DNA of 64,000 nt from Crenobacter caeni. Lineage in GTDB: Bacteria > Pseudomonadota > Gammaproteobacteria > Burkholderiales > Chromobacteriaceae. The notes beneath the pieces were generated by a model that saw nothing but the letters and a program-made list of their open reading frames with translations, did no database searches and had not been told where the DNA came from. Below are positions 24,903 to 59,275 of this stretch, piece by piece. The stretch lies in the NCBI RefSeq assembly GCF_010435965.1, contig NZ_JAAGAA010000009.1, positions 62,001 through 126,000 on the forward strand. The letters are read 5' to 3'. Both the position numbers and the translations under genes were made by a program. The stretch's first letter is position 1; every line of letters begins with the position of its first letter.

Positions 24903-25697
24903 ATGGATATGGCTATGAAACGACTGATCCCCATCCTGCTCTCTGCCTTGCTGGCCGGCCAGGCCCTCGCCGCCGACCTGATCGACACCGTCCGCCAGCG
25001 CGGCACGCTGAAGATCGCGCTGGAAGGCACCTATCCGCCGTTCAACTACCGCGAAGGCAAGACGCTGACCGGCTTCGAGGTCGAACTCGGCCAGGAACTC
25101 GCGCGCCGGCTCGGCGTGCGCCCCGAATTCGTTACCGGCGAATGGAGCGGCCTGCTCGCCGGCCTGCAAGGCGGCAAGTTCGACGTGGTGATGAACCAGG
25201 TCGCGGTCAACGAGGCACGAGAGCGCGTGTTCGACTTCAGCCGCCCGTACACCATCTCCAGCGCGCAGCTGGTGGTGCGTAAAAATGAGACGCGCACGCT
25301 GTCGGGTGCCAACCTCAAGGGCACCAAGGTCGGTGTCGGCCAGGGCAGCAACTACGCGGACCTCGCGCGCCGCTTGGACGGGGTCGAGGTCAAGGTCTAC
25401 CCGGGCGCGCCCGAGTACCTGCAGGACTTGGCCAGCGGCCGCATCGACGCCGCGCTCAACGACAGCCTGCTGATCCCGTTCGCGATCCGCGAGTCGCGAC
25501 TGCCGCTGAAGGCTGGCGCGCCGGTCGGCAGCACGGCGACGATGGCGATCCCGTTCGCCAAGGGCAACCCGGGCTTCAAGCGCGCGATCGACCAGGCGCT
25601 GTTGGCCATGCAGCAGGACGGCAGCTTTGCCCGCATCTCGAACAAGTGGTTCGGCCAGGACGTCTCGCAGCCGCCGGCCGCGCGCAAGGCCGACTAA
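24903..25697 (+). CDS. Amino-acid (cystine-type) ABC binding protein
   Basis: 264 residues. A signal peptide (MKRLIPILLSALLAGQALA) precedes an SBP family 3 fold: GTLKIALEGTYPPFNYREG, LTGFEVELGQELARRLG, WSGLLAGLQGGKFDVVMNQV and RVFDFSRPYTISSAQLVV. The WSGLLAGL...DVVMNQV block resembles FliY/TcyJ cystine-binding proteins. Three in-frame ATGs occur (24903, 24909, 24915). The last gives the cleanest signal peptide and has a GGA 7 bases upstream, so 24915 may be the true start. It is followed after 37 bp by a matching permease. No ATPase gene follows, so the transporter must borrow one from elsewhere. Confidence 0.9.
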   Translation: MDMAMKRLIPILLSALLAGQALAADLIDTVRQRGTLKIALEGTYPPFNYREGKTLTGFEVELGQELARRLGVRPEFVTGEWSGLLAGLQGGKFDVVMNQVAVNEARERVFDFSRPYTISSAQLVVRKNETRTLSGANLKGTKVGVGQGSNYADLARRLDGVEVKVYPGAPEYLQDLASGRIDAALNDSLLIPFAIRESRLPLKAGAPVGSTATMAIPFAKGNPGFKRAIDQALLAMQQDGSFARISNKWFGQDVSQPPAARKAD

Positions 25698-25734
25698 TGT
25701 CAAAGCACCCGGGCCCTGACCAAAGGATGCGTGG

Positions 25735-26397
25735 ATGCCCCTGACCGAACTGATGGCGCTGGCGTGGCCGATGCTGTTGCAAGGCACGTTCTATACGCTC
25801 GTATTCGCCTTTTCGAGCATGGTGCTCGGCCTAGCGCTGGGTTTTGTGGTCGCCTTGCTGCGCGTCGCGCGCGTGCCGGTGCTGGGCGCACTCGCGGCCT
25901 TCTACGTCAGCCTGATGCGCGGCACGCCGCTCTTGGTGCAGATCTTCGTGATCTACTACGGGCTGCCGTCGGCCGGCGTCGAGTTCGACCCGGTGACGGC
26001 CGGCGTACTGGCGCTGACGCTGAACGTCGCCGCCTACCTGTCCGAGAGCATGCGCGGCGCGATCGCCGGCGTCGGCGCCGGGCAGTGGGCGGCCGCCCGT
26101 TCGCTGGGCTTCACCTGGTGGCAGGGCATGCGCTTCATCATCGCGCCGCAGGCGCTGCGCCTGGCGGTGCCCAGCCTGTCCAACAGCCTGATCTCGCTGA
26201 TCAAGGACACCTCGCTGGTCTCGGTGATCACCGTCAGCGAGCTGATGCTGTCGACCAAGGAGCTGATCGCGCAGACCTTCGAGCCCTTGCCGCTCTATCT
26301 GATGGCCGCGCTGATCTACTGGGCGCTGTGCGGCGCGTTCGAGCTGGCGCAGCGCTACCTCGAGCGGCGGCTTGCCTTGCCCGGCCACCGCGAGTGA
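25735..26397 (+). CDS. Amino-acid ABC transporter permease
   Basis: 220 residues, HisM/YecS (TcyL)-type inner-membrane permease. It has about five hydrophobic spans. The N-terminal LLQGTFYTLVFAFSSMVLGLALG and the EAA-loop region AARSLGFTWWQGMRFIIAPQALRLAVPSLSN are typical of polar amino-acid permeases. AAGGA lies 8 bases before the ATG at 25735. It pairs with the binding protein just upstream; the usual ATP-binding partner (TcyN/YecC-like) is missing from the window. Confidence 0.92.
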   Translation: MPLTELMALAWPMLLQGTFYTLVFAFSSMVLGLALGFVVALLRVARVPVLGALAAFYVSLMRGTPLLVQIFVIYYGLPSAGVEFDPVTAGVLALTLNVAAYLSESMRGAIAGVGAGQWAAARSLGFTWWQGMRFIIAPQALRLAVPSLSNSLISLIKDTSLVSVITVSELMLSTKELIAQTFEPLPLYLMAALIYWALCGAFELAQRYLERRLALPGHRE

Positions 26398-26480: not shown

Positions 26481-27434
26481 ATGCGTCCGCTGACCCGCCG
26501 CGCTTTCCTGTCCGCCCCGCTTGCGCTCTCGACGTCCGCGTGCGTGCGCACCCGACCGCCGCTGGTGGTCGCGACCAACCGCTGGATCGGCTACGAACCC
26601 TTCTACATCGCGCGCGAACTGAATGCCTACCCGGGGCGCGCACCGCATCTGGTCGAGTTCGGTTCGGCGTCCGAAGTGGTGCGCGCGCTTGCCAGCGGCG
26701 TGATCGACGCCGGCGCGCTGACGCTGGACGAAGCGCTGCAGCTGATGCAGCACAACCCGGATATCGCGGTCGCTCTGGTCCTCGACGAATCGTTCGGCGC
26801 CGACGCGCTGGTCGCCTCCGGCGGCCTCGCATCGGCGGCCGAGCTGCGCGGGCGTCGCGTCGGCGCCGACAGCCTGGCGCTCGGTGCCTTCATGCTGGGG
26901 CGAGCGCTGCAGCACGGCGGCCTCGCGCCGTCCGACGTGACGCTTGTCCATGTCTCCTACGAAGCACAACTCAAGGCGCTGGACTCGGGCGAGGTCGACG
27001 CGCTGGTGACCTTCGAGCCGGTGCTGGGGCAATTGACGGCGCGCGGCGCACGCGTGCTGTTCGACAGCAGCGACATTCCCGGTGAAGTGGTCGACGTGCT
27101 GGTCGTCCGCCAGCAGGCGCTGGCCGACCGCGACGGGCGGCTGGTCTCGCTGCTGCAGGGCTGGTTTGCCGGGTGCGACGCGCTGCTGGGCAGCGAGCCT
27201 GCCGCGCTGGCGGCGGTCGCCGCGCGCCAGCAGATTCCGCCTGGAGAGGTCAAGCCGGCCTTGCAGCGGCTGCGCTTTCCCAGCCTGCACGAAAACCGTC
27301 ACCGTTTCGCAGAAAAGGCCACCTTGCTCGCGTCGATGCGCCGCATGCACGCGCTGCTGGCAGGCTTCGGCCTGGTGGAGGGCGCGCCGCCAAGCGGCCG
27401 CCAGATCGTGTCCCTGCCGGAGGTCCTTGCATGA
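26481..27434 (+). CDS. NMT1-like periplasmic binding protein, Tat-type
   Basis: 317 residues. The N-terminus MRPLTRRAFLSAPLALSTSAC contains a good Tat motif (TRRAFLS) and ends in a possible lipidation Cys. The body is an SBP of the nitrate/taurine/thiamine-precursor (NMT1/SsuA-like) class: VATNRWIGYEPFYIAREL, FGSASEVVRALASGVIDAGALTLDEAL, VDALVTFEPVLGQL. No ABC permease or ATPase lies beside it. Instead the stop overlaps the ATG of a GGDEF-EAL membrane protein (ATGA), so the two are made together. I infer a ligand-sensing partner for that enzyme rather than a transport component. The ligand is unknown. Confidence 0.85.
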   Translation: MRPLTRRAFLSAPLALSTSACVRTRPPLVVATNRWIGYEPFYIARELNAYPGRAPHLVEFGSASEVVRALASGVIDAGALTLDEALQLMQHNPDIAVALVLDESFGADALVASGGLASAAELRGRRVGADSLALGAFMLGRALQHGGLAPSDVTLVHVSYEAQLKALDSGEVDALVTFEPVLGQLTARGARVLFDSSDIPGEVVDVLVVRQQALADRDGRLVSLLQGWFAGCDALLGSEPAALAAVAARQQIPPGEVKPALQRLRFPSLHENRHRFAEKATLLASMRRMHALLAGFGLVEGAPPSGRQIVSLPEVLA

Positions 27435-30214
27435 GCCGCTGGTTGACCCGCTACCCCTTGCGCCTGGCGATGCCGGTCGCGCTGCTGTTGCTCGGTACGC
27501 TGTTGCTGGGCGGATTCTGGTGGATGCACTGGCAGCAGACTCGTGACGACGTGCTGGCACACGCGCGCGCGCAGGCGGGGCGCAGCGTCGAGCAGGTGCA
27601 GGGCATCGTCGCCGAGGAGTTGGCGCGCGGTGCCTTGCCGCAGGTGCAAAGGCTGATCGCCGCGGTCAGCGTCGACCCCGCCATTCGCCGCATCCTGCTG
27701 GTGACCCCGGGAGGGGAGGTGCTCGCGGCCAACCGGCTCGCCTGGGTCGGCCGGCCGCTGGCTACGCTTGGCGGGATGGCCGGCGTGCTGGACTCCGCCG
27801 CGGCACGTTCGGCGCTCAGCGCGCAGCGTCTGGAGTACGGGGAGGCAGGGGATGGCGTGATCCTAGTGCTCGCCGGTGTGCTGCAGCGGGCCGCGCCCGG
27901 ATTGCTGCGTTCGGACGAGACGGCGCTACTGGTCTACGAACTGGACGTCTCCGACCGCCTCGCGGCGACCCGCGCGCTGGCGCTCGAGCGCGCACTGGAG
28001 AGCGTCCTGTTGCTGGTGCTGGCTGCGCTGGCCCTTTATTTTGCGTTCTTCCGCACCCTCGCGCGGCGCAGCCACGCGCTCGACCTGGTGCTACAGCGCA
28101 TCGCCGGCGGCGAGTTCGGCCTGCAGCCCGACCCCGACGGGAACGACGAATTTTCCGCGCTGGCGCGTCGTGTCGGCTGGCTGTCGACGCGGCTCGCGGC
28201 GATGCGCGACGCGGTGGACGAACGCGAGCAGGCGCTGCGCGCGGCGTCCGCCAGTTACCGCGCGCTGTTCGACAACAGCCCGGACGGGCTGGTCGCGTTC
28301 GGGCGCGACGGCCGCGCGGTGCTGGCCAACCAGGCCGCGACCCGCCTGCTGGGCGGCACGGCGACGCAGGCGATCCGGGCCGACGCGCTTGGCTTGCCTG
28401 ACGGGGTGTGGGACGCGTTCTGCACCGCGTCCGGCGGCGTCCGCGAGCTGGAGAGCCGGCTCGCGACGGGTTGCGAAGTCGAGCTGACGATGATCAACGC
28501 GCTCGCGAGCGAGGCGGCGGTGCTCTGGTGCCGCCTGCACGATTTGACCGCCGAGCGCGCCGCGCAGACCGGGCAGCGTCTGGCGCGGCGGGTGTTCGAG
28601 GACGCGGGCGAGGGCATCTTCATCGCAGACGCCAGCGGGCAACTGATCGACGCCAACCCCTCGTTCGCGGCGATGGCCGGGTGCGCCCCTGCCCAGCTGT
28701 GCAGGGAGACGCTGGACGCGCTGTTCGACCCGGCCGGCCTGGCCGCGCGCGTCGACGACAGCGGGCATTGGCACGGCCAGGTTTCGTTCAGGCTCGGTGG
28801 CGGGCGGCCGACGCCGCCGCTGCACCTGTCGCTGGCGGCAAGCCTGGACGCGCAGGGGCGGCTGACCCACTACATTGGCCTCGCCAGCGACATTACCGAA
28901 CAAGTGGCGGCCGAGCGGCGATTGCAGCAGATCGCCGACCACGACGCGCTGACCGGCCTGCTCAGCCGTCCTGCGTTCAAGCGCGAGCTCGACTTGCGCC
29001 TCGCCCGTTCTTCATACGGACGGATCGCCTTCGTCGACCTCAACCGCTTCAAGCAGATCAACGACGCGCTCGGCCACTCGGTCGGCGATGCGGTGCTGCG
29101 CGAAGTCGCGCACCGCCTGCGCGACGCCTTGCCCGCCGGCGGGCTGGCTGCGCGGCAAGGGGGGGACGAGTTCTTGCTCGCCCTGCCCGAGTTCGACGAC
29201 GCGGACGGCAGCCGCTGGGCGGGGGCACTCGCGCATGCACTGGAGGCGGTCATCCACGTCGAGGGCCGTTACCACCTGAACCTGTCGTGCAGTATCGGCT
29301 TTGCGCGCTGGCCGGAAGACGGCGCCGATGCCGATACGCTGATCCGCCACGCCGACATCACCATGTATTTCGCCAAGGCGGCCGGCCCCGGCCGTTACGA
29401 GGTGTTCGCGCCAGAGATGCGCGCGCAGATGGAACGCCGCGCGCGGGTCGAGGCGGCCCTGCACGAAGCGCTCGCGGCCGGGCAGTTCTCGCTGTTCGTG
29501 CAGCCACAGCGCGCGCTGGGCAGCGGCAATACCTGCGGCGCGGAACTGTTGCTGCGCTGGCTGCACCCCGAACTCGGGCAGGTCAGCCCGGCCGAGTTCA
29601 TCCCGCTGGCCGAGGACAGCGGCCTGATCTCCGTGATCGGCGCGTGGGTGCTGCAGCAGGGATGCCTGCTGGCGGCCGCCTGGCGCGAGCAGGGCTGGCG
29701 CGGCAGCGTGTCGGTCAACGTGTCGGCCCTGCAACTGCGTTCGGCGCCGCTGATCGAACAGGTCGACCGCGCGCTGCTCGCCAGCGCGCTGCCGGCCGAG
29801 GCCCTGACCATCGAGCTGACCGAGTCGGTGCTGATGGACGACGTCGACGCGACGGCCGACGTGCTCTTGGCACTGGCCCGGCGCGGCGTGCGCGTCTCGA
29901 TCGACGACTTCGGCACCGGCTACTCCAGCCTCGCCTACCTGCAGCGGTTGCCCCTGCACGAACTGAAGATCGACCGTGCCTTCGTCTCCGGCATCGGCAT
30001 CGACGGGCACAGCGAGGCGATCATCGAGACGGTGCTGGCGATGGCCGGCACGCTGGGGATGGAGACGGTCGCCGAGGGGGTGGAAACGGCCGCTCAGGCG
30101 GCCTTCCTAGCCAAACTGGGCTGCGACGCGATCCAGGGTTACTGGCTGGCGCGGCCGATGCCGGTCGCCGAGTTCCCGCGTTGGCTGGCCGCGGCGCCGG
30201 CGTACAGCCCTTAG
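27431..30214 (+). CDS. PAS-PAS-GGDEF-EAL c-di-GMP enzyme
   Basis: 927 residues, inner membrane. TM1 is at about 13-33, a periplasmic sensor region spans about 35-178, TM2 is about 187-205, then a HAMP-like linker, two PAS-like domains (about 275-380 and 395-495), a GGDEF domain (ARQGGDEFLL intact, about residues 576-581) and an EAL domain. The EAL signature reads ELLLRW instead of EALLRW. The other EAL-domain landmarks (INVS-like VNVSALQLR, ELTESVLMDD, IDDFGTGYSSLAYLQ, LKIDRAFV, AEGVET) are present. It may make or break cyclic-di-GMP. The ATG at 27431 overlaps the binding-protein stop, suggesting that ligand binding controls this enzyme. Confidence 0.9.
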   Translation: MSRWLTRYPLRLAMPVALLLLGTLLLGGFWWMHWQQTRDDVLAHARAQAGRSVEQVQGIVAEELARGALPQVQRLIAAVSVDPAIRRILLVTPGGEVLAANRLAWVGRPLATLGGMAGVLDSAAARSALSAQRLEYGEAGDGVILVLAGVLQRAAPGLLRSDETALLVYELDVSDRLAATRALALERALESVLLLVLAALALYFAFFRTLARRSHALDLVLQRIAGGEFGLQPDPDGNDEFSALARRVGWLSTRLAAMRDAVDEREQALRAASASYRALFDNSPDGLVAFGRDGRAVLANQAATRLLGGTATQAIRADALGLPDGVWDAFCTASGGVRELESRLATGCEVELTMINALASEAAVLWCRLHDLTAERAAQTGQRLARRVFEDAGEGIFIADASGQLIDANPSFAAMAGCAPAQLCRETLDALFDPAGLAARVDDSGHWHGQVSFRLGGGRPTPPLHLSLAASLDAQGRLTHYIGLASDITEQVAAERRLQQIADHDALTGLLSRPAFKRELDLRLARSSYGRIAFVDLNRFKQINDALGHSVGDAVLREVAHRLRDALPAGGLAARQGGDEFLLALPEFDDADGSRWAGALAHALEAVIHVEGRYHLNLSCSIGFARWPEDGADADTLIRHADITMYFAKAAGPGRYEVFAPEMRAQMERRARVEAALHEALAAGQFSLFVQPQRALGSGNTCGAELLLRWLHPELGQVSPAEFIPLAEDSGLISVIGAWVLQQGCLLAAAWREQGWRGSVSVNVSALQLRSAPLIEQVDRALLASALPAEALTIELTESVLMDDVDATADVLLALARRGVRVSIDDFGTGYSSLAYLQRLPLHELKIDRAFVSGIGIDGHSEAIIETVLAMAGTLGMETVAEGVETAAQAAFLAKLGCDAIQGYWLARPMPVAEFPRWLAAAPAYSP

Positions 30215-51315: not shown

Positions 51316-51547
51316 TTACTTCACCAGCACCGGCTCTTCCTCCAGCAGTGCGGCGATGCCGTCTGTAAGCTGGATCTCGCCGCCCGCGCCGGGCTGGGTG
51401 GTCAGCAGCTTGTCGAAGATGCGCGGGGTGAGGATGTAGCGGCCGATCACCGCCAGGGTGGAAGGTGCCACGTCCGGGTGCGGCTTTTCGACGATGCTGG
51501 TCACCCGCTGCTGGCCGTTATCCTTGGCGACTTCGACAATCCCGTAC
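51316..51547 (-). pseudogene. galU: Truncated galU (C-terminal fragment)
   Basis: About 76 C-terminal residues of UTP-glucose-1-phosphate uridylyltransferase: [22 protein letters not shown] through [37 protein letters not shown] full GalU is near 290-300 residues, so about three quarters (including the nucleotide-binding N-terminus) is missing. The break is exactly at the end of the IS5-family element (51548). The N-terminal part is not found on the other side of the IS within this window. A functional galU must lie elsewhere if UDP-glucose is made. Confidence 0.9.
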
Positions 51548-52585
51548 GGCTTTGTTGCACAAATCTCCTGAAGGCTAGGCTTCCCCTTTCCCCAAACGCA
51601 GTTACCCCACGCGCACCGTAACTGGCCTGCCCAACTACGTGAAGCGGTTGAGCAGTGCCGCACGAATTTGCAACTCCGCCACCTGACGTTCAAACGTCCG
51701 CGCCATGACGCGCTCACCCAGCCGTTTGAAGCAGCGCATTTTCGTTTCGACCAGGCTACGCCGGTGGTAGCCACTCCAGCGTTTCCAGATCGTCGAGCCC
51801 AGCCTGCGGGTAGCACGTAGAATTTCGTTCCGCGCCCTGGCTCCCGCGCTATCCCCCTTCCACGGTCGACCATTCTTGCGAGCCGAGATGATGGCTTCGG
51901 CGTGACGTGCCGCAATGGCCGCGTGGCAGGCTTTGGTATCGTACGCGCCGTCAGCGCTGACGCTCGCAATCGGCTCGTCAGACGGGATCTGGTTGAGTAG
52001 CTCTGGCAACATCGGGGCGTCACCCACGCCGTTACCGGTCACTTCGATCGCGCGGATCTCCAGCGTCTCTGCATCGATCCCCAGATGCACCTTGCACCAC
52101 TGGCGCCGGTATTCGGCACCGTGTTTCTTGCGCTTCCACTCACCCTCGCCGAGAAACTGGATGCCCGTGCTGTCGATCAGCAGCTGAAGCCCTCGACCGT
52201 GTTGCTGAGCCGGGATTTTAACGGCGATCGAGTGTTGGCGACGGCTGAGGGTGCTGAAATTCGGCACTTGCCAGTCCAGACCTGCCAGTTTGATCAGGCT
52301 TTCGCTCAAGCCGATGGTCTGCCTCAACGCCAAGCCAAACAGGCATTTGACGGACAGGCAGAACTGGATGGCTACATCGCTGAAGGTTGCAGAGCGGCCG
52401 GGCTTGCCGGAAGGTTCGGCCTGCCATTGAAAGTTGGTGTCAAGCCAGATCAGAAGTGAGCCGCGCGCCTTGAGCGCGGCATCATACTTGGCCCCGTTGG
52501 TCGTCTTGTAGCGGGGCGGTGCGGGTTTACTCATGTCCGGATGCTACCTGACAAGGTCAGCGAGAGGGAGTTGTGCAACAAAGCC
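51548..52585 (-). mobile_element. IS5-family (IS903-type) insertion sequence
   Basis: 1038 bp bounded by inverted ends: GGCTTTGTTGCACAA at 51548-51562 and its exact complement at 52571-52585 (15 bp perfect). It contains one intact transposase gene. The flanks (ATCCCGTAC on the left, GGTTCAAAG on the right) are not a 9-bp target duplication. The host sequence was therefore rearranged after insertion, or one side was deleted. It separates truncated galU from an IS30 remnant. Confidence 0.9.
51635..52534 (-). CDS. IS5-family (IS903-type) transposase
   Basis: 299 residues. It starts [32 protein letters not shown], typical of the IS903 group. The DDE triad is visible as [19 protein letters not shown] and [16 protein letters not shown] (Y-(2)-R-(3)-E-type signature). 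The frame is intact, so the element may be active. The gene fills most of the element, with 87 bases to the left end and 51 to the right end. Confidence 0.93.
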
Positions 52586-52668
52586 GGTTCAAAGACGATA
52601 ACTGCGCCAGATGGCTGAGGATTTGCTCAACAAGAGGGCTTGCTGCTCACTTGGCAGCAGGTTTCTAG

Positions 52669-52878
52669 AAGCATCCGTACAGCTCTTGGCAGCGGGGCTG
52701 CAACGAGCATTTGAACGGCCTGGTGCGGCAATACTTCCCGAAAGGGAAGACAGATTTCACGAAAGTGACGCAGACGGACCTGGACGAGGTCGAGCGAAAG
52801 TTGAATCATCGACCGAGAAAACGGCTTGGCTGGCATTCGCCAGCCAAGGTCTTCCACGGAAGCAAGCCCTTGAATTGA
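52669..52878 (+). pseudogene. IS30-family transposase C-terminal remnant
   Basis: A reading frame without its own start encodes HPYSSWQRGCNEHLNGLVRQ, then YFPKGKTDF, LDEVERKLNHRPRKRLGW and HSPAKVFHGSKPLN. This is the C-terminal catalytic part of IS30-family transposases. An in-frame TAG at 52666-52668 and the loss of all upstream sequence show that it is dead. The end of this element may lie near 52910, after GTTGCACTTACTTTTTGAAT. The 80 bp between the IS5-family end and the remnant (52586-52665) match nothing I recognise. Confidence 0.85.
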
Positions 52879-52958
52879 AGGGCTTGCAGGGAGTTGCACT
52901 TACTTTTTGAATCCGGCTCCAGATGCGCTTGCGCAGATGGTCGTTGGGGATACGACAG

Positions 52959-53867
52959 TTATTTCATAATTAAAAATGAAATTGCTATTGCAAACTTATC
53001 CCGTAGTCGTCGTCTCATGTGTCGTGCATGGAAAATTAACCATAATCGATCTGCAAAATTAAACCTTTCCAGTTTCTTAATTGGCGCAGCTGCACTGCTT
53101 TCACAGAATGTAGCTGTAATTAATATCTGAGATCTGTAATTTCCCGAGCGGATTTTTCTAATTCTTGATAAGGCGGCTTTAAAGCCGCTATTAACACCGA
53201 TAACATTGCTCGCATGCTGCCTATAGAGCATTGATGGCATTGGATCAATATACCATGAATATCCTTTGCTACGTGCCCATGAGTAGATAGTCCAATCATG
53301 CAAATCTATAAGAGAAGAATCATTTTTTTTGTCTCGCAATGTATTTTGTAATTCCAATGCGAATTTTTTTGTTATTACATAGGTGCAGCCAGGACCCGCT
53401 GCTTCAAACATATAGTCCCATTTTGTCTGGGGTTGTGCTTTGTTGATTAGTTCCTGCCTGCCACTAGGCCAAAATGCAGTTACATTCGAAGAGTAGCAAT
53501 CTACGTTGTGCTCTTCAATTTTCGAAATGGCAGTAAATATTTTATCTGCTGACCATATGTCGTCTTGGTCAGACAAAGAAATATAATCAAAATTTTCTAA
53601 ATTTACACTAGCCAACAGTCGGAAGAAGTTTTGCCCAGCAGATCCACTTGATTTTATGTTTTGCAAAAATGTTATCTTGGGATTTGATTTTTTGAATTCA
53701 AAAATTTTCTCAATGGTTTTATCGGTGGACATATCATCACCAATAAAAATATTAATGACATGATCATCCGGTAGGCTTTGTTTTGTTATGGATGTTATCT
53801 GCTGTATTATATGCTTTTCGCCATTGAACGAGGCGATTATAACTCCAATGTTAATTGTCTTGTTCAT
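52959..53867 (-). CDS. Glycosyltransferase family 2
   Basis: 302 residues from the ATG at 53867 (a TTG at 53873 would add two). GT-A fold: INIGVIIASFNGEKHIIQQITSI, the nucleotide-binding IFIGDDMSTDKT and the DxD-like ISLSDQDDIWSADK. The C-terminal region (LHDWTIYSWARSKGYSWYIDPMPSMLYRQH) resembles rhamnosyltransferase-like family-2 enzymes. It is the last gene of the AT-rich cluster and is strongly AT-biased. It probably adds one sugar of the repeat unit on the cytoplasmic face. The donor is not known; dTDP-rhamnose is plausible given rfbCDA (inference). Confidence 0.88.
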   Translation of the reverse strand: MNKTINIGVIIASFNGEKHIIQQITSITKQSLPDDHVINIFIGDDMSTDKTIEKIFEFKKSNPKITFLQNIKSSGSAGQNFFRLLASVNLENFDYISLSDQDDIWSADKIFTAISKIEEHNVDCYSSNVTAFWPSGRQELINKAQPQTKWDYMFEAAGPGCTYVITKKFALELQNTLRDKKNDSSLIDLHDWTIYSWARSKGYSWYIDPMPSMLYRQHASNVIGVNSGFKAALSRIRKIRSGNYRSQILITATFCESSAAAPIKKLERFNFADRLWLIFHARHMRRRLRDKFAIAISFLIMK

Positions 53868-53874
53868 GTTCAAT

Positions 53875-54780
53875 CTATTTTGATGTTTTTAAATATAGGG
53901 CGACCAATAGCTTACGAGTTACGCGAAATAATAGCAGTGGAATTAAACACAAATAGTTCCCGTTTTCAATTTTGCACATTAAAGTCAAGTCAATGCGGTT
54001 GGATTTAAGGTGTAAATGCCGGATTCCGGTAAATTTAAATTGTTGTTCGACGTGTAGAGTTGCTATATCTTTTGGTATTATTAGTCGACCAGAAATATTC
54101 CTAGTTATCGATTTATTATGGATTCTGTATTCGGCCACGTGTTCATCTATATAGCTATAGTCACCTTGTTTAATTATTCTTAGGAATAGGCTCCTATCTT
54201 CTGCTATGTATCGAGTGTCTATCCCGCCCGCTTTCATTATCGCAGAACGCCTATACATCGTTACAGGGCCAACGAGAGACCAACGGAAAAATAATTCTTT
54301 TACTACTTGTTCGCCCGATTTGTTTTTAAAGTTCGCGCCATACAACTTCTTGGCTGCATCATCACTTAATATTTTATCTTCGCCATTAATAAGTTTTGCC
54401 TTACCAAAAACAGCAGCCGTATTATCGCTCGTAAACCCTTTTAAACGTGAAGTTATACTTGCTTTGTCTAGCTTGTCATCGCTAGCACAAAATGCAATAT
54501 ATTCACCATTCGATTCGTTGACAAGAGTCGAAAGCGTTTTTGTGATTCCATTGTTTATAGTTTTTTTGTGAGATAAATTCTCAAAATAATTTTTATTATT
54601 GATAGACCAGGTTTTTATGATTTCATATGAGCTATCTGTTGATCCATCATCAATGATTATTAATTCAATGCGGCCATAATCTTGATTTTTTAATGATTCC
54701 AAGCAAGTTTTTATATATTTTTGATGATTGTAGCAAGGTACAAGTATGCTAACTAATGGTTGATTTTTTTGTGATTTCAT
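53875..54780 (-). CDS. Glycosyltransferase family 2
   Basis: 301 residues. It has PLVSILVPCYNHQKYIKTCLESLKNQ, ELIIIDDGSTDSSYEII and the DxD-like IAFCASDDKLD, then WSLVGPVTMYRRSAIMKAGG and AEDRSLFLRIIKQG. A hydrophobic C-terminus (LCLIPLLLFRVTRKLLVALY) may anchor it to the membrane. Its start overlaps the upstream gene's end by 32 bases, so they are coupled. It is AT-rich like its neighbours. Sugar specificity is unknown. Confidence 0.88.
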   Translation of the reverse strand: MKSQKNQPLVSILVPCYNHQKYIKTCLESLKNQDYGRIELIIIDDGSTDSSYEIIKTWSINNKNYFENLSHKKTINNGITKTLSTLVNESNGEYIAFCASDDKLDKASITSRLKGFTSDNTAAVFGKAKLINGEDKILSDDAAKKLYGANFKNKSGEQVVKELFFRWSLVGPVTMYRRSAIMKAGGIDTRYIAEDRSLFLRIIKQGDYSYIDEHVAEYRIHNKSITRNISGRLIIPKDIATLHVEQQFKFTGIRHLHLKSNRIDLTLMCKIENGNYLCLIPLLLFRVTRKLLVALYLKTSK

Positions 54781-55918
54781 GTATGTATTCTTTCATTTTT
54801 TCTCTATATTGATATTCGCTGTATTTTATTGTGGCTTCATGGTGGCTTTTTTCTGTGTTGTTTAATAGGGTGTTTGTTTCAATGGAATCGCAGTAGTCGA
54901 GTGTTTGTATAATGGAGGAGCACGTCAACTCTTCTATTTCAATGCCAAAATCACCTATGTCTATGCCGCATTGTTTACTTACGATTGGAATTAATCCTCC
55001 GCGGCCCATTGCCGTTATTACGGATGTCGCGATCCCTTCTGAGCAAGAAGGCAGAATGACAAAGCATGAATCATTGATAATGGATTTGAATTTTGAAGAC
55101 TCTATATTGACAAACCCATGGATGTAAATGTTTTTGCCTATCGGCAAGTTGTTTAAAAAATAAGCTTCTTTAGATGTGTGTCCGCATACGTGTAATGTCC
55201 AATCTGGTCTTTTGGAAAATGCCTCGATAGTTATGTCTAAGCCTTTGTGAAGAAGACCATAGCTGCCAAACCATAAGGCGGTTTTTCTACTTTTTTCAAT
55301 TTGCTCAAGTGATTTGTTTGTGAAATCATTATTTGTATGATAGGTGGGGTTTATGCGATATATGTTTTTACAGCCATAATCTATGAAAGTTGATATTGTG
55401 TAGTCATTCCCAATGCATATAATCGCATCGGCAGCGTTTGCCGCAATGCCCCATCGATAGTCATTTATGCGCAAAGATTCGAGTGGTAGTTTTTTATATT
55501 TATTAAAATAATCAGTTAATCTTCCTAGGGAAGCATTGTTGCACTGCCATGGATGCGATCCAGTGGCATAAAATACACGAATAGCAGGGCTGAATGTTGC
55601 GGCTGCTTGAAATAAAGGAATTCCTTCTCCTATTATAAGATCGTACTTGGATAAGTCTAGTTTGCTAAATCTGTTATTGTTTTCGATGTCAACGTTATAA
55701 CCTAGTTCATCAAGGGCATTGGCCATGAATACAGATTCTTGATAGTTGGAGTGAGGCGTATAATTTTTCTTTTTGAAATGATAAGTGCTATATGAAATAA
55801 GTGCAGATTTGTTGTGTTTTTTATTGAATATGTTCAATATGGGGCGCTGAAAAATTCTTTCATAGATTGTCACAAAAGTTTGTTGTTTTTTTAACATTTC
55901 GATTATTTGCTGTAGCAT
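54749..55918 (-). CDS. Glycosyltransferase group 1 (GT4-like)
   Basis: 389 residues. A GT-B-like protein: the C-terminal half has ALWFGSYGLLHKGLDITIEAFSKRPDWTLHVCG, IYIHGFVNIESSKFKSII and the donor-binding CFVILPSCSEGIATSVITAMGRGGLIPIVS. The N-terminal half is diverged. It overlaps the next gene by 32 bases and touches wzx by one base, so the cluster is one transcription unit. AT-rich throughout. Donor and acceptor are unknown. Confidence 0.85.
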   Translation of the reverse strand: MLQQIIEMLKKQQTFVTIYERIFQRPILNIFNKKHNKSALISYSTYHFKKKNYTPHSNYQESVFMANALDELGYNVDIENNNRFSKLDLSKYDLIIGEGIPLFQAAATFSPAIRVFYATGSHPWQCNNASLGRLTDYFNKYKKLPLESLRINDYRWGIAANAADAIICIGNDYTISTFIDYGCKNIYRINPTYHTNNDFTNKSLEQIEKSRKTALWFGSYGLLHKGLDITIEAFSKRPDWTLHVCGHTSKEAYFLNNLPIGKNIYIHGFVNIESSKFKSIINDSCFVILPSCSEGIATSVITAMGRGGLIPIVSKQCGIDIGDFGIEIEELTCSSIIQTLDYCDSIETNTLLNNTEKSHHEATIKYSEYQYREKMKEYIHEITKKSTIS

Positions 55919-57138
55919 TACTTTTTTTCTCGGGTATGTATTATGTATAGTATAGATATGGAGGCGCTAGTGGCCCAGCCAATAGCTTGGCCGTATATGC
56001 CAGACTCCCATCCGGTGTTTAACTTTATTGTTAAAAAGCAAACCAAGGCTGAGGCAGTCCATTTAAGTGAGTATGCAATGCCTTTGCCATTTTTGATAAT
56101 GAATGTTGAAAGTGAGAAGTCAACGAATATTATGGGTGTAATTAGTATTGCAATGTTTAGGATTTCGGATGCCTGATTAAAGGAAAGGCCGAATATTAAA
56201 TTTATTAATTTGGTAGATATTAGCTGCGACAATAGTACTATCACAAGGGATGCAATCAGTAGTACGAGCGTTAGCTTAGTTATGTTTTTTAATGCTGAAT
56301 TTTTATTGTTGTAAACCATGCTTGGCGCTAGGATCGCTATGAAAAGTGTTGCTAGTGTTGGTATCAAATCAAAAATGCTCATTGCGGCAGTATAATGCCC
56401 GTATATTTCACTTTGTATTTTGTCTTTTAGCATTAGCCTATCCATTCTCATGAATGCATACATGAATATTAGTCCTGGCCAAAATTTGATTCCATCAATT
56501 AATAGTTTTGTGGCTATTGTTTTTTTGTAGTCCGTTAAGTTAAACCTGTATAGGGTATTGAGTTTTTTGTAAATATAAACGCAGGCAGTTGATGTGATTG
56601 CAGGCTCTACCAGGGATGCCAAGACAATGGCATTGTGGTTGAGTTCCAATTTTATGGCTGTATATATAAATGCTGTTTTCGCTAGTGATGCAGATATCCT
56701 AAATAAAGATGCTTTGTGTGTATTTCCAGTGGTATCTGAAAGGAATCTGAAAATGCCTAGGGGCTCTGAATATAGTATTGTTATTAATAATATGAATATA
56801 AAAGAAAAGCTTTCGCTGTTATTTGATTGCAGATATGTGTAAATTAATAATGTTATGTATACGGTGAATGATATAGCTGCCCGTAAAATTATAGAAGATG
56901 TTATGTATCTTTTATTTACGTCGCCCTTGCTGTTTAGTAATCTGTAGAATATTTCACCTGGAAAAAGCCAAGTTAAGCTGGTAGCTACTATTAAGACAGA
57001 TAGAGCGTATTGGTATGATCCAAAACTACTGACGCCAAAGTATTTAGCAATCCACCCTACGGTAATCATGGATAGTGTAAGTTGGACAAGCTTGTCTATT
57101 AGAGCCCAGGCAATGTTAACTATGTGATGCTTTGTCAT
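55918..57138 (-). CDS. wzx: Wzx-type O-antigen flippase
   Basis: 406 residues with about 12 hydrophobic spans. The N-terminal NIAWALIDKLVQLTLSMITVGWIAKYFGVSSFGSYQYALS is typical of Wzx/RfbX-type polysaccharide transporters. It flips the undecaprenyl-linked repeat unit to the periplasmic side. It shares one base with the genes on each side (55918 and 57138). AT-rich, as wzx genes usually are. Confidence 0.88.
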   Translation of the reverse strand: MTKHHIVNIAWALIDKLVQLTLSMITVGWIAKYFGVSSFGSYQYALSVLIVATSLTWLFPGEIFYRLLNSKGDVNKRYITSSIILRAAISFTVYITLLIYTYLQSNNSESFSFIFILLITILYSEPLGIFRFLSDTTGNTHKASLFRISASLAKTAFIYTAIKLELNHNAIVLASLVEPAITSTACVYIYKKLNTLYRFNLTDYKKTIATKLLIDGIKFWPGLIFMYAFMRMDRLMLKDKIQSEIYGHYTAAMSIFDLIPTLATLFIAILAPSMVYNNKNSALKNITKLTLVLLIASLVIVLLSQLISTKLINLIFGLSFNQASEILNIAILITPIIFVDFSLSTFIIKNGKGIAYSLKWTASALVCFLTIKLNTGWESGIYGQAIGWATSASISILYIIHTREKK

Positions 57139-58313
57139 TAATTGTTATTCTTTGCAGGATGTTTTTTGCTGTACCAAATTAATAAAAATTGAAATATTAT
57201 TGGAAGGGAAAGCAGCGGGTTGAAGAAGATTAAATAAAATACAGATTGTGCAATGATTGCATATTCCATGCAGTCTCTATTGTTTTTTATCCTGCACCAC
57301 TTGTATGAGGAGATCAGTCCAAGTAGTATGTTGAAAATTATTATTCCATGTGTCCCTAGGTCATTTACAATTGGTGCGTAGCCTGTGCTCATATTAAATG
57401 ATTCATGTACCAATATGTCAGTGGCCAAATCGGATTCTGCAAAAATAAATTTTTTTAAAACATTTGGCACCAAGCCTGATAATGTATTTGTCAATGAATA
57501 GTTTATGTGGCTAGTGTTTGCTATGTTTAATAAGTTATTAAAAGGTGTTGTTAGGTACATGTACGACCAAGTAAATTCGTTCGGAATCCATGCGGGGTAA
57601 TTTTCATTTATTTCAGCAAGCTCCATAAAAGAATTACTTGTTCCTTCATTAAAGGATCTTATGTTTCCAAGAGTTCCGAATATAAATGAAATAGTTATTG
57701 CTGCCATCGTTAATTTAACAAAGGTGATTACTTTTAAATTATTTGTTTTATATAGATATACAAAAAACAATTGTACGATAGATACCATTACTAAAAATCT
57801 ACTAAACATACATAGCATCCATATGAATAGAAAAATTATTTTATTAAGGTCCTTTTTTTCTTCAATATATTTTATGAAATAAACCATCAAAAGATATAGG
57901 TTTATGGAGTTAAGTATTCCATGTAGTCCAGAATAGCCATAATCTGCATAACCCCTACTGTCACCGGTTATGGCCCATGTAAGTGGGACTCCTTGCAAGG
58001 TAATGGCTTCAAATGTACTTCCAATTATTAGTGTGGTTAACAGTATTTTGATTTTTTTATTACTTATGGTTTGTGTTGTTATTGATTTTTTTGGTGGTGG
58101 TGTGAGCTTTTTATTTTTTGTTTTTAACAGTCCTGCTTGAGTTCCAACAATGGAGCCGAAAAGAAATGGTGTTATAAGATATATTATATAAAAGCTTATA
58201 TATTCTTCTGGGTTAAATATTAAAATGTTTGACCATTTTCCGGAGTAGAGGGCTATTACGGTAGACCAAACAATGAAAAATATAATAAATGGGTGCGTTA
58301 TAATTTTATTCAT
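57138..58313 (-). CDS. wzy: Wzy-type O-antigen polymerase
   Basis: 391 residues with about 10-11 hydrophobic spans and a large loop (about residues 215-300) between late helices, as in Wzy polymerases. There is little recognisable sequence, which is normal for wzy. The call rests on topology, AT-rich composition and position beside wzx and glycosyltransferases. It would join repeat units in the periplasm. It is the first gene of the AT-rich minus-strand set and starts right beside the decayed IS. Confidence 0.8.
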   Translation of the reverse strand: MNKIITHPFIIFFIVWSTVIALYSGKWSNILIFNPEEYISFYIIYLITPFLFGSIVGTQAGLLKTKNKKLTPPPKKSITTQTISNKKIKILLTTLIIGSTFEAITLQGVPLTWAITGDSRGYADYGYSGLHGILNSINLYLLMVYFIKYIEEKKDLNKIIFLFIWMLCMFSRFLVMVSIVQLFFVYLYKTNNLKVITFVKLTMAAITISFIFGTLGNIRSFNEGTSNSFMELAEINENYPAWIPNEFTWSYMYLTTPFNNLLNIANTSHINYSLTNTLSGLVPNVLKKFIFAESDLATDILVHESFNMSTGYAPIVNDLGTHGIIIFNILLGLISSYKWCRIKNNRDCMEYAIIAQSVFYLIFFNPLLSLPIIFQFLLIWYSKKHPAKNNN

Positions 58314-58328
58314 TTGCGATATTTTTTA

Positions 58329-59275
58329 TCATGGGGACGCGCTGAAAAAATACGCTCCAGCGCGGCACAGCGTCATCAACTGCGCGGCTTTCTTGGCCAG
58401 CCCCCGGTAACGGACTTTCTTCAAGCCAAACCGGTTCTTGATGATATGGAAGGGATGCTCAACCTTGGCACGGATGCGGACCTTGATGATTTCAAGCTGA
58501 TCACGCAACCGGTCGATTTCCTTGCCCATGTCCAGTGCGCGCCGCTTGCCGGGCCGCATCGCGATATTCCAGCGTACCTTGCCCTGGGCTTCCGGCCGTT
58601 TGCCAGCACCTTGATAGCCGGCATCCCCGTAGCCCTCCTGCTCGTCGCCATGTAGCAGTGCTTGTGCCTGGGTGACGTCATTCACGTTCGCCGTCGTGCC
58701 GATGACCGTGTGCACCAAGCCAGAGGCGGCATCCACCCCGATGTGTGCCTTCATGCCGAAGTGCCACTGTTGCCCTTCTTGGTCTGATGCATCTTGGGGT
58801 CGCGCTCGCCCTTCGCGTTCTTGGTTGAGGACGGTGCCGCGATGATCGTGGCGTCAACTATGGTGCCTTCGCGCAACATCAGGCCTTGGCTGGCCAGATG
58901 TGCTTTGATCGTGGCGAAGATGGTTTCGGTCAACTGATGCGTTTCGAGCAGGCGGCGGAACTTGAGCAGGGTGGTCGCATCGGGCGCCGACTCACGCCCT
59001 AGGTCGAGACCGACAAACTGACGGATGGCCCTTACTGTCGTAGAGCGCATCTTCTATACCCTCGTCGGACAGCCCCGGGCTCTGCTGCACGATGTACATG
59101 CGCAGCATCTTTTTCAGACGGATCGGCGGCGCCCGCCACCTTTCGGGTAGAACGGCGTCAGCGCCGCAAGCAGCTCGGACCACGGGGTGATTCGTTCCAG
59201 CTCTGCCAGGAAACGCTCACGCCGCGTTGTCTTGCGCTTCGCGGCATACTCCAGATCAGCAAAACTCTTCTGCAT
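58329..59275 (-). pseudogene. Frameshifted IS5-group transposase
   Basis: A decayed transposase in four segments: MQKSFADLEYAAKRKTTRRE...LTPFYPKGGG (59275-about 59130), PPIRLKKMLRMYIVQQSPGLSDEGIEDALYDS (to about 59045), AIRQFVGLDLGRESAPDATTLLKFRRLLE...HQTKKGN (to about 58765), then WHFGMKAHIGVDAASGLVHT...AGAYFFSASP (to 58329). Frames alternate, explained by three single-base indels: a lost C near 59130, an extra G near 59035 and a lost C near 58772. This is the IS5 subgroup, different from the IS903-type at 51548. Clear terminal repeats were not found. It is GC-rich, unlike the cluster it abuts. Confidence 0.85.

Follow-up and report, generated by a model that had tools for sequence, protein, structure and literature searches.

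Here, a two-gene module of Crenobacter caeni was analyzed, which is located in a window of 64,000 nucleotides (nt) (contig NZ_JAAGAA010000009.1 of assembly GCF_010435965.1, positions 62,001 to 126,000 of the forward strand; coordinates below are those of the window) and consists of a gene for a solute-binding protein (SBP) of the NMT1 family and a gene for a membrane-bound receptor with PAS, PAS, GGDEF and EAL domains, i.e., an enzyme of cyclic di-GMP (c-di-GMP) turnover. Most probably the two genes encode two proteins that together are dedicated to sensing one extracellular solute. The arrangement of SBP and receptor gene is not due to chance, since it recurs in the genome of C. caeni itself and at the great majority of loci studied. 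The conserved unit is the SBP together with the periplasmic sensor of the receptor, with interchangeable outputs (GGDEF-EAL, GGDEF or histidine kinase), because the output switches while SBP and sensor distances correlate. The original prediction, made from the sequence of the window, of an NMT1-like SBP gene overlapping the start of a c-di-GMP enzyme gene was borne out: the stop codon of the SBP gene lies inside an ATGA shared with the ATG of the receptor gene, resulting in a 4-nt overlap (Table 1), and Pfam returned the predicted order of PAS (two stretches), GGDEF and EAL.

A second pair is present in the C. caeni genome, namely an SBP gene at L003:7709-8698(-) and a gene for a GGDEF-EAL protein at L003:5268-7712(-), which also overlap by 4 nt; this paralogous SBP shows 36% identity to the SBP of the window, and the GGDEF motif of its partner is decayed (TADEF). 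Searched with the profile of the SBP subfamily, the whole genome yielded no further member at E<=1e-5. An SBP relative was detected in 12 of 61 genomes of the family at 1e-20 and, using a single-sequence query at 1e-25, in 49 of 399 genomes from the order, while SBPs of the receptor type were found in at least 29 of these 399 genomes (five candidates scored per genome). Two sets of loci were compared, with some records present in both (e.g., L057/L105, L062/L113 and L065/L128): an order-level set of 41 loci, two of them from C. caeni itself, comprising all relatives above 139 bits with flanks of 5 kilobases (kb), and a named set comprising the best 80 of the 579 matches listed, selected with the peptide pattern F[DS]S[STR]x[IM]PGE[IV]. 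In the order-level set, the downstream gene matched the hidden Markov model (HMM) of the sensor at 35 of 41 loci, encoded a receptor with a fused PhnD-type domain at five and an EamA transporter at one (L077). In the named set, a sensor-bearing receptor was encoded within 200 nt at 73 of 80 loci, a count that is partly circular as 49 rows of this set, plus the window, went into the HMM, whereas the 35 of 41 are mostly independent of it; three further loci had the receptor further downstream, three were at contig edges and L180 carried a kinase open reading frame (ORF) without recognised sensor. The titles of the named loci include Cyanobacteria, Aquificota, Nitrospinota, Nitrospirota, Planctomycetaceae, Verrucomicrobia, Acidobacteria, Myxococcaceae, Bdellovibrionales and many Proteobacteria, although many of the records are contigs of metagenome-assembled genomes and single titles are possibly misbinned. 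Conservation of the gene junction in relatives, on which the original prediction had been made to depend, was observed as well: among 108 pairs with recognisable sensor the exact 4-nt overlap occurred in 57, and in 101 the junction was between -60 and +20 nt. Tandem NMT1-type SBP genes precede a single receptor gene at L139 (kinase) and at L179, L182 and L183 (picocyanobacteria by title; GGDEF).

Receptor starts, positions of transmembrane (TM) helices and output labels of the relatives were derived from simple scripts (longest frame, hydropathy and phmmer with our own domain queries) and spot-checked by Pfam on nine receptors and one PhnD-type receptor. Almost throughout, TM1 is located near residue 10-15 and TM2 near residue 180-195. 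By contrast, the outputs of 104 distinct pairs were histidine kinase in 50, GGDEF-EAL or EAL in 42 (the EAL-only L167 being counted with GGDEF-EAL) and GGDEF in 4, with 8 unassigned, two of which (L075 and L082) end after PAS and are followed by a kinase gene. The 104 pairs are 107 minus repeats, after removal of L077, L180, the PhnD-type L072, L076, L078, L079 and L081, the contig-end L112, L150 and L178, the distant-start L114, L124 and L145, receptors of less than 270 residues, and the tandem-SBP loci L179, L182 and L183 as well as one of the two SBPs in L139. Across these pairs, SBP and sensor distances correlated with r=0.79 (permutation maximum 0.09) and, when only pairs with different outputs were considered, with r=0.57 (permutation maximum 0.12). 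This correlation indicates that SBP and sensor genes travel together; contact between the proteins is not implied, as joint inheritance would give the same result. Switches between histidine kinase and c-di-GMP outputs numbered at least 13 on the SBP tree and 10 on the sensor tree, as compared to 32 on average after shuffling of the labels; among the sister cases, L067 carries GGDEF-EAL and L071 a kinase (checked by Pfam).

The periplasmic part of the receptor is predicted to be a single Cache/PDC domain. A model of receptor residues 1-265 (mean predicted local distance difference test, pLDDT, 93.8) showed one extended helix for TM1, a domain of mixed alpha/beta structure and TM2, which continues into the HAMP-like region, and the sensor fold matched (Foldseek, VIA-align) WalK with Z 14.3 (root-mean-square deviation, rmsd, 2.4 over 133 residues), TlpQ (15.0), KinD (12.9), CitA (about 12.6), DctB (12.4) and an integrative model of WalK-YycH (16.9). 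The fold assignment derives from the model alone: the Pfam scan of the receptor returned no Cache family match and no match at all in the periplasmic domain, and the sensor profile searched against PDB sequences retrieved mainly HAMP matches and CitA only very weakly (E 0.24-0.33). HAMP, below the cut-off in the window receptor, was above it in six of nine related receptors scanned by Pfam. With regard to output, the EAL domain of the window receptor contains E705, N763, E795, E798, D825, D826, K846, E882 and Q902, the list of catalytic residues being based in part on PMC9993111; no RxxD inhibitory site was seen before the GGDEF motif. Judging from motif conservation, the core output is most likely phosphodiesterase activity, because the EAL site is intact in the GGDEF-EAL members examined while the GGDEF motif is decayed in several: of 43 such receptors, 42-43 retain the EAL residues and 35 retain the GGDEF motif.

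As for the SBP, Pfam matches to NMT1_2 (1.2e-13) and NMT1 (2.6e-10) were above the cut-off, and the best NCBIfam model was SsuA_fam (2e-23, below the cut-off of that model). Together with the predicted type II SBP fold (mean pLDDT of the AlphaFold2 model 92.2), the two matches over the gathering score place it among NMT1/SsuA-like proteins. The Tat-like (twin-arginine translocation) signal noted originally is real as far as the motif TRRAFL is concerned, which fits the Tat consensus; Tat export is only part of the picture, however, because all 29 order-level relatives in alignment A1 have Cys21, so that the SBP is predicted to be a lipoprotein. Cys21 is kept in 50 of 59 rows of a wider set (A4), and the RR motif is present in about 19-22 of the 29 A1 rows and rare in A4, the rows of which were cut to at most 318 residues. 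Residue +2 after the lipobox Cys is Val, not Asp, which under the E. coli +2 rule would favour outer-membrane placement, a point to which we give no weight.

The closest fold was that of TauA (Z 31.3, rmsd 2.4 over 285 residues), in the pocket of which Gln30 binds the sulfonate whereas Glu106 and Asp205 bind the amine (PMC6906117). Alignment of the SBP family to this pocket argues for a cationic, non-sulfonate ligand, because the amine carboxylates are kept (Asp108 in 29/29 A1 and 59/59 A4 rows, Asp205 in 28/29 and 57/59) while the sulfonate ligand Gln30 is replaced by Trp35 (29/29 and 58/59) and Thr132 mostly by Leu or Val. Conservation in A4 at about residues 194-203 is built in, since the 80 loci were chosen by a peptide pattern. 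A taurine-like sulfonate, as names of the SsuA_fam type imply, is thus quite unlikely as the ligand despite the TauA fold and the SsuA_fam match: apart from the substituted sulfonate positions, the next-nearest SBP relatives score 140-270 bits with the receptor-SBP profile as compared to 63 for TauA, and these closer relatives are often found behind guanidine-I riboswitches.

Guanidine or another small amine or guanidinium-like cation is the leading guess for the ligand, albeit a tentative one. A guanidine-I riboswitch was found directly before non-receptor SBP relatives at 39 of 101 places in the 399 genomes (part of the candidates scored in each genome), at a distance of 65-212 nt, and an Rfam scan of the low-scoring loci (14 of 21 covered) detected it in seven, with L102 added by a home-made model. 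In Synechocystis, an SsuA_fam SBP, a permease and an ATPase are encoded in operons with a guanidinase controlled by a guanidine riboswitch (PMC8390497). Trp35, Ser104, Gly106, Asp108, Pro180 and Asp205 are common to full-length receptor-type and riboswitch-linked rows, but also to other relatives of unassigned ligand, and the cleft signature W35/S104/G106/D108/D205 of riboswitch-linked SBPs, whose role in guanidine binding is putative, is present in the window SBP by alignment; the alignment includes the fragmentary rows L091:20 and L092:17, in which some positions are missing. In the SBP tree, the receptor SBPs (support 97, 38 of 39 rows) are separated from two groups of riboswitch-linked SBPs. 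Several results, on the other hand, weigh against guanidine. The riboswitch preceded receptor-type SBPs at 0 of 30 places in the 399 genomes and was found neither in the window nor in a search of the C. caeni genome, and the possibility that the receptor pairs themselves lie behind guanidine-I riboswitches was not supported, as none was detected near the 80 named receptor loci (four of seven non-receptor control loci matched) or in 43 order-level sources. Likewise, no support was obtained for an enrichment of guanidine-I riboswitches in genomes with receptor-type SBPs (5 of 29 as compared to 3.6 expected, Fisher p 0.39). With the ABC_peri_uca equivalog model (cut-off 333.9 bits), the window SBP scored 82.1 bits, and the riboswitch-linked L094 (85.9) and L100 (160.5) were also below the cut-off. 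An extracellular sensor of guanidine or guanidino compounds, in which a guanidine-type lipoprotein freed from ATP-binding cassette (ABC) transport was tied to a single-Cache receptor and spread across phyla as an input cartridge for c-di-GMP enzymes and kinases, is therefore a conceivable but rather doubtful reading.

An NMT1-type SBP gene is followed by a gene for a fatty-acid-desaturase-like membrane protein at L088, L090, L092, L094, L097, L101 and L102 (Pfam FA_desaturase for L094 and L101), and the desaturase-linked SBP genes at L092, L094, L097, L101 and L102 lie directly behind guanidine-I riboswitches. Conceivably, the desaturase-like protein is a di-iron enzyme with guanidine as its substrate.

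For the pair itself, we propose that the NMT1-type lipoprotein would be exported, anchored to a membrane and closed around its ligand, that the loaded or the empty SBP would dock on the periplasmic part of the receptor, the single Cache domain, and that the signal would reach the PAS, GGDEF and EAL domains via TM2 and the HAMP-like linker and change c-di-GMP turnover; in relatives, the unit of SBP and sensor would drive histidine kinases instead. Direct binding of small molecules is common among Cache domains, and CitA, KinD and TlpQ are among the fold matches obtained here. Hence, the Cache domain itself might bind the ligand, with the lipoprotein merely concentrating, sequestering or buffering it and the adjacency of the genes serving co-regulation. 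This alternative would also account for receptors without an adjoining SBP: in a sensor-only search of the 399 genomes (part of the candidates scored in each), 22 of 26 matches at E<1e-15 adjoin a receptor-type SBP and four do not (G228, G087, G223 and G189; L185-L188), with no such SBP within about 5 kb on each side and no receptor-type SBP at 1e-40 among the five candidates scored in each of these four genomes. Apparently the sensor can exist without the SBP, which weighs against a dedicated pair, as do the SBP of L077, which is followed by the EamA transporter and not by a receptor, and the receptors of L072, L076, L078, L079 and L081, which sense via the fused PhnD-type domain and not via Cache (by Pfam in L076 only). 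Moreover, the permutation test cannot separate co-evolution from joint vertical inheritance. Nevertheless, direct sensing by the Cache domain alone is considered unlikely: SBP and sensor divergence go in parallel, also between receptors with different outputs, and the sensor alignment (A6) has no invariant position, unlike a conserved small-molecule pocket, whereas the cleft residues of the SBP are near invariant.

In L072, L076, L078, L079 and L081, the PhnD-type domain is fused to a kinase or to GGDEF-EAL, so that two SBP types occur per apparent sensor. Among weaker sensor matches, L191, L193, L194, L195, L197, L200 and L202 have a stand-alone PhnD-like SBP gene directly upstream (by Pfam in L191 and L193). 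This suggests that a second SBP family, of the PhnD type, may be wired to related Cache-type sensors.

The SBP might instead be a transport protein located by chance beside the receptor gene and serve an ABC permease encoded elsewhere or the permease encoded upstream. The original statement that no ABC permease or ATPase is encoded nearby did not strictly hold for the permease: genes for a cystine/polar-amino-acid-type SBP (24903-25697) and permease (25735-26397), both on the plus strand and assigned by Pfam and NCBIfam to another SBP family and transporter type, precede the module, the permease gene ending 83 nt upstream of the SBP gene. It did hold for the ATPase, as no ATPase ORF was seen beside this upstream pair in a listing of 21-36 kb. 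The order of family-3 SBP, permease, NMT1-type SBP and receptor is also found in L045, a 91% identical relative, and the C. caeni genome contains 33 BPD_transp_1 matches. However, the upstream permease is accompanied by a family-3 SBP of its own and is of another transporter type, and the paralogous pair at L003 has no such adjoining genes, for which reason the cystine-type genes were rejected as a general functional partner on the basis of the relatives inspected for them. The best SsuC-like permease of the genome (C27, 2e-22) is likewise already provided for, its gene being part of an nrtABC-like cluster that includes a separate SBP and an ATPase, and only one other match (3e-4) was obtained. 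An SsuC-type permease was encoded at none of the 121 loci (41 order-level plus 80 named), and an ABC ATPase ORF was present at eight of them; among more distant SBP relatives, 4 of 21 adjoin both permease and ATPase. The condition originally named as refuting, homologous SBPs being normally encoded with ABC permeases, was thus not borne out for these loci. A role of the SBP in transport is accordingly rated as very improbable, and the earlier interpretation of the pair as an independent ligand-sensing module is supported by its recurrence beside receptors in the absence of SsuC-type permease genes. The cystine-type SBP and permease genes of the window (24903-26397), without an adjacent ATPase gene seen, are an arrangement kept in L045.

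SBP-activated receptors are an established class in which the SBP binds the sensor domain of the receptor (PMC9602780, PMC11113362), and 13 SBP families were counted in a review by Matilla et al. (2021), as given in PMC9602780. By analogy, the same mechanistic class is proposed for the window pair. In NspS-MbaA of Vibrio cholerae and Sinorhizobium meliloti, with which the pair had been compared originally, the SBP gene overlaps the gene for a TM-periplasmic-TM-HAMP-GGDEF-EAL receptor with c-di-GMP output, the overlap being 3-16 bp in most species, and the system is present in less than 1.4% of proteobacterial genomes (PMC9993111). NspS is PotD-like, and the periplasmic part of MbaA comprises about 233 residues (24-256), no PAS domains being described (PMC9993111). 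The comparison is apt as an analogy, given that the genes of the window also overlap and encode an SBP and a GGDEF-EAL receptor; it does not extend to the SBP family or the periplasmic domain. As had been predicted, the window SBP is of a different family, with NMT1_2, NMT1 and SsuA_fam matches and no PotD or polyamine-SBP family listed by Pfam and NCBIfam, and the periplasmic part of its receptor is a predicted single Cache domain of about 150 residues. Unlike MbaA, the window receptor has two PAS domains, and its relatives use histidine kinase outputs. The window SBP shares fold, family and the carboxylates at the amine-binding positions with TauA/SsuA, from which it differs by Trp in place of the sulfonate Gln, the predicted lipid anchor, the receptor partner and the lack of an SsuC-type permease. 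With riboswitch-linked SBPs (SsuA_fam/ABC_peri_uca-like), its nearest non-receptor relatives by profile score, it shares cleft residues; those SBPs are encoded beside ABC permease and ATPase or a desaturase-like protein, whereas the receptor-type SBPs form a clade of their own that was never found behind the riboswitch. No description of an NMT1-family SBP paired with GGDEF/EAL or kinase was found in the titles and abstract openings searched, with subscription literature largely outside this search.

To our knowledge, very few SBP-driven c-di-GMP receptors have been worked out. The pair of NMT1-type SBP and single-Cache receptor would represent a second such solution, structurally unrelated to NspS-MbaA, and SBP plus sensor looks like a reusable chemical sense across many phyla. 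As the same input appears to be combined with different outputs, a ligand screen of one lipoprotein could reveal the stimulus of many kinases and c-di-GMP enzymes at once, for which the relation to guanidine-riboswitch SBPs offers a concrete first candidate. If the guanidine reading is true, guanidine outside the cell would steer biofilm formation or gene expression.

Table 1. Features of the SBP gene and the receptor gene in the window.
Feature	Position	Strand	Evidence
NMT1-family (SsuA/TauA-like) solute-binding lipoprotein (predicted), 317 residues	26481..27434	+	ORF, translation, Pfam, AlphaFold2 model
Export signal, residues 1-21: twin-arginine motif TRRAFL and lipobox ending at Cys21	26481..26543	+	Sequence
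Codon of Trp35, at position of TauA Gln30 (sulfonate ligand)	26583..26585	+	Profile alignment to 6ssy
Codon of Asp108, at position of TauA Glu106 (amine ligand)	26802..26804	+	Profile alignment to 6ssy
Codon of Asp205, at position of TauA Asp205 (amine ligand)	27093..27095	+	Profile alignment to 6ssy
ATGA overlap between SBP gene and receptor gene	27431..27434	+	Sequence; same 4 nt in 57/108 relatives
Receptor TM-sCache (single Cache)-TM-HAMP-PAS-PAS-GGDEF-EAL, 927 residues from ATG	27431..30214	+	ORF, Pfam
TM1, about residues 12-30	27464..27520	+	Hydropathy scan; model helix 10-65
Periplasmic sensor, predicted single Cache/PDC fold, about residues 35-180	27533..27970	+	AlphaFold2 model of residues 1-265
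TM2, about residues 189-207	27995..28051	+	Hydropathy scan; model helix 174-225
HAMP-like linker, residues 208-256	28052..28198	+	Pfam HAMP 20.3 bits, below 25-bit cut-off
PAS 1, from about residue 273, end approximate	28247..28570	+	Pfam PAS families; TIGR00229 best stretch 273-314
PAS 2, residues 386-492	28586..28906	+	Pfam PAS_4/PAS
GGDEF domain, motif intact	28934..29386	+	Pfam 3e-35; motif check
EAL domain, all key catalytic residues present	29453..30157	+	Pfam 5e-65; residue check

A scan for a sigma-70-like consensus upstream of the SBP gene detected no promoter-like site, although such a scan carries little information. Elsewhere in the window, the stretch 52000-58500 has a low content of guanine plus cytosine (0.34-0.46 in its middle) and contains apparent polysaccharide genes (flippase, polymerase and glycosyltransferases), and is probably a horizontally acquired surface-polysaccharide island. 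At 51316-52534, a transposase-like ORF lies on or beside a sequence that resembles the C-terminal part of galU; this galU-like gene is possibly interrupted.

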